A stretch of 64,000 bases of DNA from Hymenobacter sp. 15J16-1T3B (lineage in GTDB: Bacteria; Bacteroidota; Bacteroidia; Cytophagales; Hymenobacteraceae), in contig NZ_JAJFAV010000009.1 of assembly GCF_020711235.1 (NCBI RefSeq), positions 62,001 to 126,000 of the forward strand, in the 5' to 3' direction. How positions within the stretch are numbered: position 1 is the stretch's first letter; each line of letters begins with the position of its first letter. Shown here one piece after another: positions 11,325 to 55,202 of this stretch. The notes beneath the pieces were generated by a model, which had not been told where the DNA came from, made no database searches, and was given only the letters and a program-made list of their open reading frames with translations. Position numbers and translations under genes: made by a program.

Positions 11325-11560
11325 GAGGCAGGGCGCATTTTCTCTCTTTGCCGGCTGCCTATTCCACACATGCCCGCCATCAACAAGCCCCTGCGTGCGC
11401 AGCCAAGCGCCCCGGCCGGCGTGGGCAACTTCAACCCATCGGCGACGGTACTCGCACGGCCCGTCGATCCGTCCGCCCCGGCGGTAAGATAACCCAGGCG
11501 GCAGCGGCTACTGAAAGTCGCGCGCGGGCAGTAGCTTCGGGGCTTTCCCCGCCCCGCGCC

Positions 11561-11926
11561 ATGACCATCGAAGACCTGCAAACGCTTTGCCGCCAGCTGC
11601 CCGGCGTCACCGAAGACATCAAGTGGGACCACCACCTGTGCTTCAACGTGGGCGGCAAGATGTTTCTTATCACCTCGCCCGATGAGGTGCCGCCCACGGC
11701 CTCGTTCAAGGCCACGCCCGCGCAGTTCACGGAGTTGCTGGAGCAGCCCGGCTTTGCGCCCGCCTCGCACCTGGCCCGCTACCACTGGCTGCACCTCGAC
11801 GACATCGGCCGCCTGAGCCCGCAGCGCTGGCAACAGCTCATCCGCGAATCGTACCGCCTGGTGGTGGAAAAGCTGCCCCTGAAGCTGCGCAAGCAACTGG
11901 CGGCGGACGGGGCGCCCATTCAGTAG
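11561..11926 (+). CDS. MmcQ/YjbR family DNA-binding-like protein
   Basis: 121 aa from the ATG at 11561; the upstream in-frame extension crosses intergenic sequence with no coding character. The sequence carries the family's hallmarks: LPGVTEDIKWDHHLCFNVGG near the N-terminus, KMFLITSPDE, FKATPAQF, and YHWLHLDDIGRLSPQRW followed by ESYRLVVEKLP at the C-terminus. YjbR proteins have a CyaY-like fold with a double-wing arrangement and are often annotated as DNA-binding, though a physiological role is not established. It stands alone between the phosphatase and an unknown gene. Confidence 0.88.
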   Translation: MTIEDLQTLCRQLPGVTEDIKWDHHLCFNVGGKMFLITSPDEVPPTASFKATPAQFTELLEQPGFAPASHLARYHWLHLDDIGRLSPQRWQQLIRESYRLVVEKLPLKLRKQLAADGAPIQ

Positions 11927-12079
11927 ACGCTGCGCTCCAAACGTGCCCAATATCCGGGCTAGCACGGGTACAGTTCCCGGGCTGGCACGAATACCCCCGC
12001 GTTGACCTGGCTGGTACCTTGCGCCCGGTTGGGCCCGGCCTCGGCCGGGCTTTTTGTCCACCGGTTAGCGTTAGTACAG

Positions 12080-12775
12080 ATGTCTACCTACTCAGCCTAT
12101 TTTGCTAATTTCTTTACGACGCTGCCCGTCTCCCGCGTCCGCTTTCATGCGCTAGGCACCGCCGTGCTCACGGCCCTTGGGGCCGCCGAGCTACCGGCTG
12201 CGTTTGACCCTCACCTCGCGGAATTGCAAGCCGCCCTCAACGCCTTTGACGTTGACCTAGCCGAAGCCGGCCCCGCGCCGGCGGGCAACTCCGCGGCCTA
12301 CCGCGCCGCCCGCCGGGATTGGCTCACGTTCGTCGACGACACGATGAAGGATTACGTGACGCCGCACCTGCGCAAGCAGCCGGCGTACGCCGATTTCATG
12401 CGTCACCGCAAGAGTCGCCTGGCCCAGCTCGACCACGCCAGCCTGCTGCGGCAGTCCAAGCAGCTGCTGGCCCTCTACGACGTTCACCACGCGGCGCTGC
12501 AGTACCCGGCATTGCCCGCCGACGCCCGTGCCGTGTTCCAGCAGCTGACCCAAGCCGACAACGCGCGTACCATCACCGAAGCTATTCTCGACGCGGCCCG
12601 CGTGTCGGCGGCGGGCGACTGGCAGCGGCTGGCCCGCGCCCTGCGCCGCGTGAAGGCCCAGCTCGAGCTGCACTTCGACGAGCCGGCCGCCGTGTACCGC
12701 TTTTTCGATTTCGCGCCGGGCCGCAACTACAGCCTCCCCGCGGGCCAGCCCCTGGCCGACGCTACGGCCGCCTAG
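12080..12775 (+). CDS. Uncharacterised helical protein
   Basis: 231 aa from the ATG at 12080; an earlier GTG/TTG extension would reach into promoter-like sequence (TACCTTGC near 12015). It has no signal peptide or membrane segment. The protein is predicted mostly helical and Ala/Leu-rich, with conserved-looking segments DWLTFVDDTMKDYVTPHLRK, LYDVHHAALQYPALP and AVYRFFDFAPGRNYSLP. The overall architecture is reminiscent of the DUF6261-type proteins common in Bacteroidota, but I cannot confirm that. It is followed at once by a hairpin terminator, so it is monocistronic. Confidence 0.7.
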   Translation: MSTYSAYFANFFTTLPVSRVRFHALGTAVLTALGAAELPAAFDPHLAELQAALNAFDVDLAEAGPAPAGNSAAYRAARRDWLTFVDDTMKDYVTPHLRKQPAYADFMRHRKSRLAQLDHASLLRQSKQLLALYDVHHAALQYPALPADARAVFQQLTQADNARTITEAILDAARVSAAGDWQRLARALRRVKAQLELHFDEPAAVYRFFDFAPGRNYSLPAGQPLADATAA

Positions 12776-31884: not shown

Positions 31885-33219
31885 ATGCTCCCCGACCTCG
31901 TCCGCCGCTTTATCCTCGACCACCAGCTTTTTGATCCGGCCACCGACCAGGTGCTCGTCGCCGTCAGCGGCGGCCTCGATTCGGTGGTGCTGCTCGACGT
32001 GCTGCACCAGCTGGGCGTATCGGTGGCCGTGACGCACTGCCACTTCGGCCTGCGCGGCGAGGAGGCCGATGCCGACGAGGAATTCGTGCGCAAGCTGGCC
32101 AAGAAGTACAACGCGCCCTACTTCGCCGAGTTTTTCGACACCAAGGGCTTTGCCCAGCAGGAAGGCCTCTCGACGCAGATGGCTGCCCGCGTGCTGCGCT
32201 ACCAGTGGTTTGAGCAGCTCCTGCGCACCCAGGGCCTCGACTACGTGGCCACCGCCCACCACCAGCGCGACGCGGCCGAAACCATGCTGCTCAACCTCAC
32301 CCACGGCACCGGCCTCTCGGGCCTGCACGGCATTCCCGCGCGCCAGGGCCGGGTGGTGCGCCCGCTGCTGGGCGCGGCCAAGGACGATTTGTTCGACTAC
32401 GTGGTGGAAAAGCACCTCGTCTGGCGCGAAGACTCCTCCAACGACAGCACCCTCTACCAGCGCAACCGCCTGCGCCACGACGTGCTGCCCGTGCTGCGCG
32501 AGCTGAACCCGGCCCTCGACCAAACCCTGCAGCACACCGCCGAGCGGGTGCGCGGGGCCGAGCTGCTGGTGCAGCACCTGGTGGACCAGACCGCCCAGCA
32601 GGCCCGCCGCGACGAGGCCGAAGCCACCTACATCAACATCGCCGTGCTCCAAGCCACGCCCGCCACGGCCGTGATGCTGCACGAGCTGCTGCGCCCCTTC
32701 CACTTTTCCTGGCCGGTCACCAAGGACATCGTGGAGTCGTTCCGCGCCGTGTCGGGCAAGCAGTTCGACTCGCCCACGCACCGGCTGGTGAAGGACCGCG
32801 ACCAGCTGGTCATCACGCCCAAAAACCTCAGCGGCTTCGGCACCCACCAGTGGCCGGAGGGCCAGGCCGAGCTGCAGGTGGAGGGGCTGCGCTTGACGGC
32901 CCAGGAACGCGCGGTGGACGGCTACGCCGTGCCCAAAGCCAAGGACGTGGCGGCGCTGGACCTCGACAAGCTCAAGTTTCCGCTCACGCTGCGGCGCTGG
33001 CGCGAGGGCGACTGGTTTATGCCCATCGGCCTGAAGGGCAAAAAGAAAATCAGCGACTTCCTCATCGACCAGAAAGTGCCCCTCAACCTCAAGGACCAAG
33101 TATTGCTGCTCACCTCGGCCGACGGCAAGGTGGTGTGGGTGGTGGGCATGCGCCCCGACGACCGATTTAAGGTGACCGAGGAAACGCAGCGGGTGCTGGA
33201 GCTGCGCCGGCAGAAATAG
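31885..33219 (+). CDS. tilS: tRNA(Ile)-lysidine synthase
   Basis: 444 aa from the ATG at 31885. The PP-loop AVSGGLDSVVLLDVLH (SGGLDS at 28-33) binds ATP. HCHFGLRGEEADADEEFV, TAHHQRDAAETMLLNLTHGT then GLSGLHGIP, and REDSSNDSTLYQRNRLRHDV are the TilS-specific segments. The C-terminal domain (LRRWREGDWFMPIGLKGKKK then ISDFLID) binds tRNA. The enzyme attaches lysine to cytidine 34 of tRNA-Ile(CAU), letting it read AUA. An essential housekeeping gene with its own promoter; a periodic repeat array follows it. Confidence 0.96.
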   Translation: MLPDLVRRFILDHQLFDPATDQVLVAVSGGLDSVVLLDVLHQLGVSVAVTHCHFGLRGEEADADEEFVRKLAKKYNAPYFAEFFDTKGFAQQEGLSTQMAARVLRYQWFEQLLRTQGLDYVATAHHQRDAAETMLLNLTHGTGLSGLHGIPARQGRVVRPLLGAAKDDLFDYVVEKHLVWREDSSNDSTLYQRNRLRHDVLPVLRELNPALDQTLQHTAERVRGAELLVQHLVDQTAQQARRDEAEATYINIAVLQATPATAVMLHELLRPFHFSWPVTKDIVESFRAVSGKQFDSPTHRLVKDRDQLVITPKNLSGFGTHQWPEGQAELQVEGLRLTAQERAVDGYAVPKAKDVAALDLDKLKFPLTLRRWREGDWFMPIGLKGKKKISDFLIDQKVPLNLKDQVLLLTSADGKVVWVVGMRPDDRFKVTEETQRVLELRRQK

Positions 33220-33724
33220 CCCCGTAGTGCCCCGGCTCCTGAAGTCGTGGCGCCGCTACGGTTAAGGTGCCCCGCCGAAAGCGGCAACGCGCATAACAGA
33301 GGGGTTGGCCCCCGTGGCCGCCGCCTTTCCAGGCCGATCCGCCGGCTTTCCGGTCGTGGCCGGCGCGTGTCCATTGATGTGGGCGACGTTTCCAGCCGTG
33401 GCCGGCGCGTTTCTATCTGTTCGGCTGACGTTTCTAGTGGTGCGCGACCGGTTTCCACGCGTGCGCGGCGCGTTTCCAGGGGTAACCGACTGCCTCCCGG
33501 CCCAACCGATTCGCGCCCCGCTCAACAGGGCTTCGGCACGCCCAACCGACGGCCGCTGCGCTCAACCGACTTTCTCCGTGGTCAACCGGGCAGCTCGGCG
33601 GGCAAGTGGCTTTCCAGGGCTGAACGGGCTTGGTGCTAAAAACTACGCGGCAAGCACCACCCTCTAAGCACTGGTGCTTACCTTGCGGGCCAGAACCCCA
33701 TCATCAATTCCCAACGACCACCCC
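33220..33724. other. Intergenic region carrying a short-period repeat array
   Basis: 505 bp between tilS and mdh. Most of it (33326-about 33620) is the 20-21-bp direct-repeat array described separately. Its right end holds a TACCTTG sequence (33679-33685), a plausible weak -7 box for mdh. Confidence 0.7.
33326..33622. repeat. Degenerate direct-repeat array, 21-bp then 20-bp period
   Basis: Sub-array 1: eight units of exactly 21 bp beginning at 33326, 33347, 33368, 33389, 33410, 33431, 33452 and 33473, each starting TTTCCA or a close variant (TTTCCG, TGTCCA, TTTCTA) and usually ending GGCGCG or similar. Sub-array 2: the word CAACCGA or a variant recurs every 20 bp at 33483, 33503, 33523, 33543, 33563, 33583 and 33603. 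There are no unique spacers of CRISPR length, and the change from 21 to 20 bp rules out an intact repetitive reading frame. Confidence 0.85.
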
Positions 33725-34669
33725 ATGAAAGTAACCGTTGTAGGGGCCGGTAACGTGGGCGCCACTTGCGCCGACGTACTCGCCACCCGCGAAATTGCCA
33801 ACGAAGTAGTTCTGGTTGACATCAAGGAAGGCATTGCTGAAGGCAAAGCCCTCGACATCTGGCAGAAAGCCCCCATCATCGGCTACGACACGCGCACGGT
33901 GGGCGTGACGGGTGACTACTCCCGCACCGCTGGCTCCGACGTGGTGGTCATCACCTCGGGCCTGCCCCGCAAGCCCGGCATGAGCCGCGACGACCTTATC
34001 GCCACCAACGCCGGCATCGTGAAATCGGTGACCGAGCAAGTGGTGAAATATTCGCCCAACGCCATCATCATCGTCGTGTCGAACCCGCTCGACGTGATGA
34101 CCTACCAGGCGCACCTGACCTCGGGCCTGGACCGCACCAAGGTGTTTGGCATGGCCGGCATTCTGGACACGGCCCGCTACCGCGCCTTCCTGGCCGAGGC
34201 CCTGAACGTGAGCCCCAAAGACATTCAAGCGGTGCTGATGGGCGGCCACGGCGACACCATGGTGCCGCTGCCGCGCTACACCACGGTGGGTGGCATCCCC
34301 GTCACCGAGCTGATCGGCAAGGCTGAGCTGGACGCCATCGTGCAGCGCACCGCCGTGGGCGGCGGCGAGCTGGTGAAGCTGATGGGCACCTCGGCCTGGT
34401 ACGCCCCCGGCGCCGCCGCGGCCCAGATGGTGGAAGCCATTGTGCGCGACCAGCGCCGCGTGTTCCCGGTGTGCGTGGAGCTGAAAGGCGAGTACGGCAT
34501 CGACGGCGTGTACCTGGGCGCCCCGGTTATCCTCGGCAAAAACGGCATTGAGCGCATCATCGAGCTGCAGCTCAACGACGAGGAAAAGGCACTGCTGGAA
34601 ACCTCGCGCGGCCACGTGAAAGAGGTAATGGACGCGCTGGACAAGATGGGCCAGCCCGCCAGCGCCTAA
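33725..34669 (+). CDS. mdh: Malate dehydrogenase (LDH-like type)
   Basis: 314 aa from the ATG at 33725. NAD-binding VVGAGNVGATCADVL opens the protein (GxGxxG at 7-12). GLPRKPGMSRDD carries the Arg that selects dicarboxylic malate over lactate. Catalytic Asp148 (GILDTARYR) and His175 (MGGHGDTMV) are in place. It interconverts malate and oxaloacetate in the TCA cycle and belongs to the tetrameric LDH-like MDH group typical of Bacteroidota. Monocistronic; the upstream intergenic region contains the periodic repeat array. Confidence 0.97.
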   Translation: MKVTVVGAGNVGATCADVLATREIANEVVLVDIKEGIAEGKALDIWQKAPIIGYDTRTVGVTGDYSRTAGSDVVVITSGLPRKPGMSRDDLIATNAGIVKSVTEQVVKYSPNAIIIVVSNPLDVMTYQAHLTSGLDRTKVFGMAGILDTARYRAFLAEALNVSPKDIQAVLMGGHGDTMVPLPRYTTVGGIPVTELIGKAELDAIVQRTAVGGGELVKLMGTSAWYAPGAAAAQMVEAIVRDQRRVFPVCVELKGEYGIDGVYLGAPVILGKNGIERIIELQLNDEEKALLETSRGHVKEVMDALDKMGQPASA

Positions 34670-52414: not shown

Positions 52415-53050
52415 TTACTCCAGTTCGCGCAGCGTAGCCTCCAGCTGGTCGAGGTACTGCCCGTAGCGGCGCTGGCGCTGTTGTTGGCCGGCGCGGTACA
52501 GCCACGCGCCCATGCCCACCGCGGCCAGCAGCCCCGCGCCCACCACCAGAGCGTGCTCGAACTGCTGCCCTTCGGCCTGCAGGTAGCCGAGCAACGCGTG
52601 GCGCTTCAGGTAGAGCGCGGCCAGCAGCAGCAGCCCGTACCAGCCCACGCCGTACACCTGGCGCAGCCGCAGCACCTGCTTTACCTGCCCGGTGAGGCGG
52701 CCGAGCTGCTGGCGCAGGTTGTCGTCGGCGCGCTCCATCTGCCGAAACAGCCACAGCTGCCAAAGCAGCGACGCAACCAGCAGCAGAAAGCCAGCCAGCA
52801 GCAGGCCGCGCATCAGCGGCTCGTGCATCACGCCGTGGGCGGAGCCCTGCCCCAGCACGGTGCGCATGTTGATGGCCAGAATCAATACCGCCACGCTCAG
52901 GTTGCGGCGGACGTTGTGCTTCATGTGGCTGAGCGGGGTATCGGGGGTGTGGGCAAGCATGGCGCGAAGGGTTTGTTCGGTGGATTCGGGGGAAGTGGCG
53001 GGGCCCACGGGCTGCGTCTGCCAGCGGCGGCGGAGGTCGTCGAGTTCCAT
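52415..53050 (-). CDS. Membrane protein, probable anti-sigma partner
   Basis: 211 aa. An N-terminal cytoplasmic segment (MELDDLRRRWQTQPVG) precedes four hydrophobic helices in two pairs (about 50-95 and 130-185), and an Arg/Gln-rich C-terminal helix. The start ATG overlaps the sigma factor stop by one base (TGATG), indicating translational coupling. ECF sigma factors are commonly encoded with a membrane anti-sigma factor; that role is inferred from this arrangement, since no zinc-binding anti-sigma motif (HxxxCxxC) is present. Confidence 0.75.
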   Translation of the reverse strand: MELDDLRRRWQTQPVGPATSPESTEQTLRAMLAHTPDTPLSHMKHNVRRNLSVAVLILAINMRTVLGQGSAHGVMHEPLMRGLLLAGFLLLVASLLWQLWLFRQMERADDNLRQQLGRLTGQVKQVLRLRQVYGVGWYGLLLLAALYLKRHALLGYLQAEGQQFEHALVVGAGLLAAVGMGAWLYRAGQQQRQRRYGQYLDQLEATLRELE

Positions 53051-53559
53051 CAGGCGGGGTGGGTTAGCAGGTGGCGAAGCTTGTCTTGCACGCGGTGCAT
53101 TTTCACGCGCACGTGGTTTGGGGTGAGGCCGAGGATGTCGGCCATTTCCTCATAGCTGCGGTCTTCAAGGTAGAGCAGCACGAAGGCTTTTTCCACGCTG
53201 CTCAGCCGCTCAATGGCCCGGTAGAGCTGGGCTAGGTCGTCGGCGTCGGGGCCCTCGGGCGGCGGGGCGGCGTAGGGGGCCTCCGGGTCGAGGGGGCCGG
53301 GTGCGGGGTGGCGGCTGCGCCGCCGTAGGTCCGACACGGCCACGTTCAGCGCCACCCGGTACAGCCAGGTGCTCACCTTGGCCGCGCCGGGCCGGTACTG
53401 CGGCCAGGCCCGCCACAGCTGCAGCACGATTTCCTGGTAGAGGTCCTGCCGGTCGTCAGCGTCGGCGCAGTACATGCGGCACACGCGCAGCAGCAGGGGC
53501 TGGTTGGCGCCGACGAGGGCGGTAAAGTCGGCGGAAACGGGCGGGGTGGCAGGGCTCAT
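53050..53559 (-). CDS. ECF-type RNA polymerase sigma factor
   Basis: 169 aa from the ATG at 53559 (an earlier TTG would add six residues). Region 2 is ADDRQDLYQEIVLQLWRAWP plus KVSTWLYRVALNVAVSDLRR; region 4 is LSSVEKAFVLLYLEDRSYEE then MADILGLTPNHVRVKMHRVQ. The linker between is Pro-rich. ECF sigmas direct RNA polymerase to stress or transport promoters. It lies at the head of a two-gene unit; the repeat array at 53.7-53.9 kb sits 130-350 bp upstream. Confidence 0.93.
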   Translation of the reverse strand: MSPATPPVSADFTALVGANQPLLLRVCRMYCADADDRQDLYQEIVLQLWRAWPQYRPGAAKVSTWLYRVALNVAVSDLRRRSRHPAPGPLDPEAPYAAPPPEGPDADDLAQLYRAIERLSSVEKAFVLLYLEDRSYEEMADILGLTPNHVRVKMHRVQDKLRHLLTHPA

Positions 53560-53686: not shown

Positions 53687-53916
53687 TTACTATTCCGTTT
53701 CACTTGCTACTAGCCGCGCCGCCTGCATTACTAGCGGCGCCAAACCAGCTGCTAGGCAAGCAACCCGCATTACTGGGCACGCTCAACCGACTACTAGGCA
53801 GGCCAAACGTGCTACTAGCCGCTCATCCGCAACTGCTGGGCACGCGCAACCATATACTAGCCCTGTTACCCCAACTGCTAGGCAGGGCACCGCGTTGGCT
53901 CGGCCCGCCGCACTGC
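53687..53916. repeat. Degenerate direct-repeat array, 21-bp period
   Basis: About ten 21-bp units beginning at 53707, 53728, 53749, 53770, 53791, 53812, 53833, 53854, 53875 and 53896, plus a partial unit upstream. The consensus is CTRCTAGGCANGCNCAACC plus two variable bases. CTACTAG, CTGCTAG or TTACTAG starts most units and CAACC or a variant lies near the end. The word GCTCAACCGACT (53781-53792) is also present in the array at 33.5 kb. No unique spacers exist. Confidence 0.85.
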
Positions 53917-53989
53917 CCGGTACTCGGGCCCACCACCGTCCAGCCCGGCGCCGCTGTTTGTCCCCCTCTCCTACTGCCCCCCCAATGAA

Positions 53990-54018
53990 AAAGCCACCCC
54001 GGCAATCGGGGTGGCTTT
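53990..54018 (-). terminator. Terminator of the grpE-dnaJ operon
   Basis: A 12-bp stem (53990-54001 with 54007-54018) with loop GCAAT and a flanking A-run that gives a T-tract on the minus strand; 32 bp after the dnaJ stop. Confidence 0.85.
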
Positions 54019-54050
54019 CGTTTCACACAGCTGCAAAATCAGCAGCTGGC

Positions 54051-55202
54051 TTACTGGAAGTACTCCTTCACTTTCTCGAAGAAGCCTTTTTCGTTTTTGC
54101 CGGGGCTCGGGGTGAAGTTGGGCGAGGTGCGCAGCTTCTCCAGCGCGGCGCGCTCCTCGGCCGTCACGTTCTTCGGCGTCCACACGTTGATGTGGATGAG
54201 CTGGTCGCCCTTGCCGTAGCCGTTCAGGTCCGGAATGCCCTTGCCGCGTAGGCGCAGAATCTTGCCGGCCTGCGTGCCCGGGTCGATTTTCACTTTCACC
54301 TTGCCCTCGATGGTAGGCACTTCCAGCGAGGCGCCCAGGGCGGCGTCGACGATGGAAATGTACTGGTCGAGCACCACGTTGTTGCCGTCGCGCTTGAGCA
54401 GTTCGTGCGGCTCCTCCTCGATCTGAATGAGCAGGTCGCCGGGCACGCCGCCGCGCTCGGGGTAGTTGCCCTTGCCCGACATGGAGAGCTGCATGCCCTC
54501 GGCCACGCCCGCCGGGATGTTGATCGGAATGATTTCCTCGGCCAGCTGCCGGCCTTCGCCGTGGCACACGTCGCACTTGCTGGTCACCACCTTGCCTTCG
54601 CCGTGGCAGGTGGGGCAGGTCGAGGAGCTGACCATTTGGCCGAGCATGGTTTGCACCACGCGCTTCACCTGGCCCTGGCCGTGGCAGGTGGCGCAGTCGC
54701 GCTGTTCGGTGCCGTTTTTGGCGCCGGTGCCCGAGCAGGTGTTGCAGGCCGTGTAGCGCTTCACCTTGATTTTCTTCTCGACGCCGTTAGCGACTTCCTC
54801 CAGGTCGAGCTTGAGCTTGATGCGCAGGTTGGAGCCCTTGCGCACGCGCCGGCCCTGGCTGCGGGCCCCGCCGCCGAAGAAGCTCTCGAAGCCGCCGCCC
54901 CCGCCGCCGAAGATGTCGCCGAACTGCGAGAAGATGTCCTCCATGCTCGGGCCGTGGCCGTTGCCGGCCGCACCGCCCACACCCTGGTGGCCAAACCGGT
55001 CGTAGCGGGCGCGCTTCTGCTCGTCCGACAACACTTCGTAGGCCTCGGCGGCTTCCTTGAATTTGTCCTCGGCCGTGGGGTCGTCGGGGTTTTTATCGGG
55101 GTGAAACTTGATGGCCACCTTGCGGTAGGCCTTCTTAATCTCGTCGCCCGACGCGTTTTTGGCTACGCCCAGAATTTCGTAATAATCTCGCTTGGTCGAC
55201 AT
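54051..55202 (-). CDS. dnaJ: Chaperone DnaJ (type I Hsp40)
   Basis: 383 aa. J domain with HPD in [10 protein letters not shown], then a Gly/Phe-rich region ([14 protein letters not shown]), four CxxCxGxG zinc motifs ([32 protein letters not shown]), and the substrate-binding C-terminal domains. DnaJ delivers unfolded proteins to DnaK and stimulates its ATPase. It follows grpE by 60 bp; dnaK itself is elsewhere, which is common in Bacteroidota. Confidence 0.97.

Follow-up and report, generated by a model that had tools for sequence, protein, structure and literature searches.

Intergenic arrays with a 21-bp pitch and mostly locus-specific words in Hymenobacter

The window, a 64,000-nucleotide stretch of the Hymenobacter sp. 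15J16-1T3B genome, holds between tilS and mdh a tandem array of short units (array 1). What keeps a spacing when the sequence being spaced is free to drift? The first-pass annotation had taken the retained period as a sign of selection on spacing, and its observation that the period is kept while the units diverge is borne out here. It had named as possible roles a phased binding platform, curved DNA, or the source of a structured RNA. We re-examined array 1, searched the window and related genomes for further arrays with this period, and weighed what could have made them.

The tilS–mdh array and its neighbours

Array 1 extends over positions 33303–33623, with diverged units, and ends about 100 bp before the mdh ATG (Table 1). 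Eight TTTCCA-like words start 21 bp apart from about 33326, and seven CAACCGA-like words follow at a 20-bp spacing between about 33483 and 33609, with poor matches at the third and the seventh. In the 21-bp section, the units contain a second word about one turn later. In particular, the unit at 33471–33491 contains both TTTCCA and, about one turn on, TAACCGA. Hence, the two repeat sections of the first-pass annotation, whose counts of eight and seven words stand, belong to one array. Its upstream units show the TTTCCA-type word and its mdh-proximal units the CAACCGA-type word; on the way to mdh, a single array thus changes both its pitch and the word that is better kept. An inverted repeat, AAGCACCA...TGGTGCTT, lies at 33640–33700 between array 1 and mdh and, judged by eye, is partly kept in relatives.

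Table 1. Positions of the two arrays and their neighbouring genes in the window
Feature	Position	Strand	Remarks
tilS	31885..33219	+	upstream neighbour of array 1; ORF and codon-usage gene call; relatives by tblastn; name from the first-pass annotation
array 1, 21-bp section	33303..33491	+	eight TTTCCA-type units after a weak leading unit
array 1, 20-bp section	33483..33623	+	mdh-proximal end; seven CAACCGA-type words, 20-bp steps
mdh	33725..34669	+	downstream neighbour of array 1; ORF and gene call; name from the first-pass annotation
sigma-factor-like gene	53050..53559	-	beside array 2; named by reading the translation
array 2	53696..53926	-	eleven 21-bp units; + strand TACTAGGCA..., - strand GGTTGAGCGTGCCTAGTA...
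dnaJ-like gene	54051..55202	-	upstream neighbour of array 2; named by reading the translation

Autocorrelation over 33301–33500 gives z values of 6.5 at lag 21 and 8.0 at lag 42, and over 33491–33630 a z of 5.6 at lag 20. None of 1000 first-order resamplings reached the observed values at any lag from 5 to 59, so the signal is significant at all three lags. The best run of eight 21-bp units (33303–33491) has a mean pairwise identity of 0.583 and the best run of six 20-bp units (33485–33623) one of 0.593, compared with 0.376 and 0.407 as the best values among 2000 shuffles. Both measures place the array, with its 21-bp and then 20-bp steps, far beyond chance, and the 21/42-bp part was also called by Tandem Repeats Finder.

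We then compared tilS loci from relatives, 26 from Hymenobacter(-aceae) and four distant ones. The comparison of orthologous gaps, proposed at the outset, revealed 21-bp arrays related to array 1 in four species, H. gummosus (L021), H. jeollabukensis (L022), H. edaphi (L024), and H. busanensis (L025). None was detected in the tilS–mdh gap of L023, L026, and 20 other Hymenobacter loci, and, among the latter 20, that of L037, L040, and L043 has repeats of other kinds. The AACC words nearest mdh follow each other in steps of 19–20 bp (or 40) in all five species with the array, namely 20, 40, 20, and 20 in the window, 20 and 19 in L021, 19 and 19 in L022, 19 in L024, and 20, 19, 20, and 19 in L025. 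The period switch is therefore a feature of the tilS–mdh locus. The 20 scanned loci of Hymenobacter outside the window's genus showed no such 21-bp array; some gaps there have repeats of period 7/14 (L034, L035, L037, L038, L040, L043, and L044). Among the eight loci L021–L028 and the window, a gene that looks lipoprotein-like by eye sits between tilS and mdh in L022 and L024 (about 11380–12080) and in L027 and L028 (about 11350–11830), and is missing from L021, L023, L025, L026, and the window.

Array 2 lies between the dnaJ-like and the sigma-factor-like gene, and was detected by both Tandem Repeats Finder and a model-free column score. Its words are unrelated to those of array 1. A terminator-like hairpin, seen by eye, occupies about 53988–54019 between array 2 and the dnaJ-like gene, and the sigma-factor-like protein has 73–91% identical matches in four of the five relatives' loci examined. 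Besides the window, H. edaphi and sp. CRA2 have an array in this gap, that of H. edaphi lying next to an additional gene. No array was detected there in L120, L122, and L123, the last of which has no sigma factor at that place. The CRA2 array is unrelated to the window and G002 arrays of the same gap (z 0.1 and 0.8), so turnover or independent origin occurs. It starts with a long perfect palindrome (L121, about 988–1039).

A lack of other copies in the genome had been put forward as an argument against array 1. As far as the words are concerned, the lack is real: neither those of array 1 nor those of array 2 recur clearly elsewhere in their own genome, the best off-site matches being of 26 bp (E 0.003) and 33 bp (E 0.1). 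In terms of period it is not, as arrays with the same period exist elsewhere in the window and in relatives. Array 1 has no match in a plasmid collection.

One period, many words

The survey covered 2.86 Mb, including the window, drawn from five genomes of the window's genus, with genes called by codon usage. Repeats of period 10 to 63 were scored in 1346 gaps of 110 to 3000 bp (397 kb). Gap–period pairs with z > 6 numbered 172, compared with four after one first-order resampling per gap, and their counts peak at periods 42, 21, and 63 (24, 22, and 15), every other period having at most 10. With z > 10, 20 of the 26 gaps are best at period 42 (17) or 21 (3); because the score favours longer periods, a best period of 42 does not exclude 21. 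The remaining six gaps either have heptamer or octamer repeats or resemble coding sequence that the gene calls missed. Nine of the 20 arrays come from 400 kb of G002, seven from 400 kb of G003, two from 200 kb of G001, and two, both in the window, from 1.66 Mb of the window's own genome (G000), while 200 kb of G006 yielded none. Gaps without a called array also have a raised lag 21 (z 3.7 to 8.9 by genome), to which we give no weight because other multiples of three are raised as well, as missed coding sequence would cause.

Fourteen arrays, with at least seven 21-bp units in register (7 to 13 each), were used for pooled statistics, and six shorter ones were set aside. Pooled autocorrelation reaches a z of 32.1 at lag 21, with −0.8 at lag 20 and −1.8 at lag 22. 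Each array's matrix was scanned freely over its own gap, and 124 of the 161 steps between core matches are exactly 21 bp. The others comprise 19 sub-steps of 7–14 bp, eight steps of 16, 19, or 20 bp, and ten of 32 bp or more; the 20-bp section of array 1 falls outside its step matrix, which models the first word.

The gaps that hold the 20 arrays are co-directional in 13 cases, divergent in five, and convergent in two. This matches the background of 151 gaps of 300–1400 bp in the same contigs (97/41/13), and there is thus no sign of a link to promoters, array 1 itself being upstream of mdh. Of the 40 proteins flanking the 20 arrays, 19 were scanned with Pfam; seven of these have no family, and no regulon theme was seen among the 19. 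A chromosomal domain around tilS–dnaJ, suspected from early matches, was rejected, as arrays with related cores lie on other contigs of G002, G003, and G006. Neither an origin nor a terminus stood out clearly in the GC skew.

To compare words, the unit matrices of 16 arrays, including two outside the set of 14 (the CRA2 dnaJ-gap array and the L021 array), were aligned in all rotations and on both strands. Among the 16 orthologous pairs, z lies between 2.7 and 10.5 in 13 and is 1.9, 0.8, and 0.1 in the rest; the 104 non-orthologous pairs do not exceed 2.3. Orthologous arrays with like units have the same orientation with respect to the genes, the one exception being a pair of palindromic arrays. 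Hence, the period is shared and the words are mostly locus-specific, most of the compared arrays having a word of their own. Related arrays in G001, G002, and G003 occupy the gap between a GHMP-kinase and a sugar-transferase gene, and these alone, three of the 14, show palindromy within the unit at z > 3; the other 11 range from −2.1 to 0.6, with −2.1 for array 1 and −0.2 for array 2.

A few cores occur at more than one place. A profile of the tilS–mdh core identified a second array at G003:C3:184316-184516 and G002:C43:54608-54749. A profile of a CCCACC-type core from G002:C36 has matches in 21-bp register in G002:C11, G003:C5, four G006 places, and G000:C11:454326-454403, with registers computed by hand from the match table and coding possibly underlying those places; it has single weak matches (E 0.04 to 0.1) in G001, G004, and G007, and none in G005. 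Since cores recur at further loci, one word can serve a few loci.

Some arrays have a pitch of 42 bp. Palindromic words of the GAGTACTC type, with spacers largely unlike each other, are repeated at this pitch in G002:C36 at about 211600–211880 (L143) and in G003:C22 at about 431680–431960 (L189). The two are at orthologous places in two species, and look like a four-turn version of the same idea. Palindromes of the GCCGCCTGGGCGG type recur at the same pitch in G003:C22 at about 443037 (L190).

Unit anatomy and divergence between two species

Column conservation is more uneven than uniform star decay would leave it in 10 of the 14 arrays at p < 0.05, with a combined p of 2e-13 in which three orthologous pairs are not independent. 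In array 1 alone, the unevenness is not significant (p 0.22). The units are composed of conserved core columns and free spacers. Their likeness is flat over distances of one to six units (0.58–0.61; 0.582 at distance 1 and 0.584 at distance 6), and declines beyond six to 0.494 at distance 10.

The first-pass annotation had equated 20–21 bp with two helical turns, and the A/T content by phase agrees with it. Both the 10.5-bp and the 5.25-bp components are raised, with a joint column permutation p of 0.0005 for 11 non-redundant arrays, that is, the 14 minus three orthologous G003 copies. Compared with other gaps, the two components have p values of 0.06 and 0.01 for the 11 non-redundant arrays, and of 0.013 and 0.003 for all 14. 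No 7-bp or 3-bp excess is found in the long arrays relative to control gaps: the 3-bp share is 0.088 versus 0.125, and the 7-bp share 0.060 versus 0.107 (n = 14). At lags 7 and 14, pooled autocorrelation likewise has z values of −1.8 and −2.9. The 21-bp period therefore fits two helical turns, and not three heptads or seven codons; an origin from three 7-bp heptads was rejected for want of a 7-bp component.

Four orthologous gaps were aligned between G002 and G003, of which three were tested. The tilS–mdh array aligns over 218 bases with 28 substitutions and no gap. The substitutions cluster by 21-bp phase (heterogeneity p 0.0014), and CAA at phases 1–3 (TTG on the gene strand) is unchanged at 33 of 33 positions. 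The phase test gave p values of 0.34 and 0.059 in the other two arrays, and is thus significant in one of three. The A/T bases next to CAA differ in parallel between G002 and G003. Accelerated evolution of the core, suggested by these parallel substitutions, was rejected because H. gummosus (L021), which is outside the pair, has the G003-like words TTGTCAGG/TTGTGAGG. On a simpler reading of the alignment, A/T bases outside the kept CAA were probably lost in G002.

Insertions and deletions are few within the aligned blocks. The block of gap 72073 has one 1-base gap, and the three array blocks together have one indel per 74 substitutions, compared with 200 per 3767 in 99 of 125 other gaps, those with more than 30% substitution having been dropped. 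The deficit is only weak, since about four indels would be expected at the rate of the other gaps, and the block of gap 47881 was chosen to leave out a length difference inside the array. That difference amounts to 79 bp between G002 and G003, and the G003 array has one 16-bp step; array length changes therefore do occur.

Candidate explanations and known systems

Repeats that code, or once did, would keep a 21-bp period through a heptapeptide of seven codons. The peaks at 21, 42, and 63 are all multiples of three, and one or more stop-free frames are present in every one of the 14 arrays, though such frames are common in GC-rich DNA. However, array 1 and the tilS–mdh arrays of relatives have steps of 19–20 bp, the A/T content has no 3-bp component, substitutions in the tilS–mdh array are spread 11/8/9 over the three codon positions (hand count), and other multiples of three are less favoured in gaps. 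With the frame broken and a codon pattern absent, a peptide repeat was rejected, in agreement with the first-pass annotation that the array is not a gene, and we consider a coding past very improbable. A structured or regulatory RNA made from the gap is, if anything, harder still to credit. tilS, array 1, and mdh are on one strand, so read-through is possible, but the arrays fold no better than shuffles. Specifically, z is +2.0 for each of the two strands of array 1 and +0.9 for the minus strand of array 2, and the 14 arrays on both strands have a mean z of −0.25. An Rfam scan of the window found no family at the gathering threshold, arrays also lie in two convergent gaps, and the RNA source named among the initial suggestions is not supported. 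Intrinsic bending or wrapping fares somewhat better and is still improbable. Here, helix-phased A/T steps would curve the gap for a nucleoid protein or RNA polymerase, and words would matter only through bending. The 10.5-bp and 5.25-bp components are in line with this, and a wedge model gives array 1 a strong curvature (1.24 degrees per bp), a value reached by 0.3% of column permutations made alike in all units. The early suggestion of curved DNA thus holds for array 1 in this model and does not extend to the class: the curvature ranks of the 14 arrays are uniform (KS p 0.70), array 2 lies below the mean of its own permutations, and general curvature was rejected because array 1 alone stands out. 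Besides, bending alone does not demand words kept across species.

The main rival is neutral. Amplification or template switching in this lineage would copy 21-bp steps whatever their sequence, producing satellites whose core is homogenised by short-tract conversion. Unrelated words sharing one period at different loci are what such a process would leave, and so are the unrelated CRA2 array in the dnaJ gap, the 42-bp super-units of several arrays, and the uneven density, with 9 and 7 arrays per 400 kb in G002 and G003 versus 2 in 1.66 Mb of G000. On the other hand, unit likeness does not fade out to six units, columns divide into core and spacer, the tilS–mdh arrays of G002 and G003 align over their 218 bp without a gap, and related arrays persist in the GHMP-kinase/sugar-transferase gap of three genomes. 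We know of no process with a two-turn ruler of this kind, and regard neutral satellites as unlikely, though a serious competitor.

Direct repeats of about 20–22 bp on one face are typical of plasmid iterons and partition sites, which sit beside a replication or partition gene. In contrast, the Hymenobacter arrays are found at many chromosomal loci beside housekeeping-type genes, and the 19 Pfam-scanned of the 40 proteins flanking the 20 arrays include no replication-initiator or partition family. Bacterial minisatellites (VNTRs) are also tandem non-coding units, but the period here is held across unrelated arrays. As to variation in unit number, the one species pair compared (G002/G003) is gapless in the tilS–mdh array and differs by 79 bp at gap 47881. 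LytTR (AgrA-type) proteins bind direct repeats about 21 bp apart with a nonamer consensus; we found two matches to this consensus on both strands of the 14 arrays versus 1.06 expected by shuffling, and rejected such sites. REP/BIME elements were rejected as well, because the units of arrays 1 and 2 are not palindromic and their words do not clearly recur in their own genome.

Among the matches listed from open-access full text, a scope that most subscription papers fall outside, no description of such arrays was found. The nearest published item found, as far as the cited passages go, is the TAACTGA heptamer, a direct repeat of Beggiatoaceae, Cyanobacteria, and some Bacteroidetes (PMC4679880). 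It has in common with the Hymenobacter arrays short direct repeats in gaps, an occurrence in some Bacteroidetes, and no functional theme among neighbours. It differs in being one fixed 7-bp word that in Beggiatoaceae is mostly just before start codons, whereas the Hymenobacter arrays have a period of 21, mostly locus-specific words, and no raised 7-bp component. The geometry recalls the BvgA arrays, for which the cited passages describe six dimers bound to weak sites along one face at 22-bp intervals (PMC7250471). Many weak, diverged sites with a pitch of two helical turns on one face are common to both, and 124 of the 161 steps, at 21 bp, conform in spacing alone to this two-turn arrangement. 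In contrast to the BvgA pitch of 22 bp, head-to-head sites, and last site abutting the −35 element, the Hymenobacter arrays have a pitch of 21 bp, units that are mostly not palindromic (an inverted head-to-head site per unit is absent in 11 of the 14 arrays), and no evident promoter link. The lack of an inverted site weighs only against placing the arrays in the BvgA type. The arrays also differ from what these passages describe in the 7 to 13 units of the long arrays and the many unrelated words per genome (PMC7250471).

The pitch, the one-turn component, the division into core and spacer, and the flat likeness together fit sites on one face better than an RNA, a peptide, or a decaying satellite. 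We favour the reading, and give it about an even chance, that the arrays are platforms for proteins of several specificities bound on one face two helical turns apart. The phased binding platform of the first-pass annotation thus remains the best reading; its proteins are putative, and it is now widened to a class at many loci with mostly locus-specific words. Each array would be a double-stranded DNA platform carrying a row of short putative protein-binding sites, each with a core of about 7–15 bp (by eye) within the 21-bp pitch and, in some arrays, a second word about one turn on. Bound protomers would line up next to each other along a single face of the DNA and could thereby bind cooperatively. 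The same pitch with different words may reflect several structurally alike proteins that bind in one geometry and differ in specificity, and cores recurring at two or more loci in a genome may be several targets of one protein. The outcome might be a neighbourhood that is locally coated, silenced, or tuned, and not a plain promoter function, because the gap orientations match the background. Protein binding, selection on pitch, and this local effect are all three what we infer from the sequences. A separate protein for each word family is a costly assumption of the platform reading.

More tentatively, and with less confidence than in the platform itself, the arrays may represent a class of bacterial DNA elements found genome-wide and defined by pitch instead of sequence, in which different words are set two helical turns apart, orthologous places are kept, and words drift together. 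Behind such a class could stand a family of cooperative proteins that coat one face of the DNA and have many specificities, or copying with a two-turn ruler; if true, either origin would be new. Repeats are usually classed by sequence, and here the spacing is fixed at two helical turns while the sequence varies by locus. Most of the class would therefore escape a search by word, and is found by a search for the period. If the arrays are neutral, they reveal amplification with a helical ruler, a process that to our knowledge has not been described in bacteria. If they bind proteins, their 7 to 13 units would make them natural baits for cooperative DNA-binding proteins of Bacteroidota, and natural experiments on the strictness with which evolution preserves helical phase.
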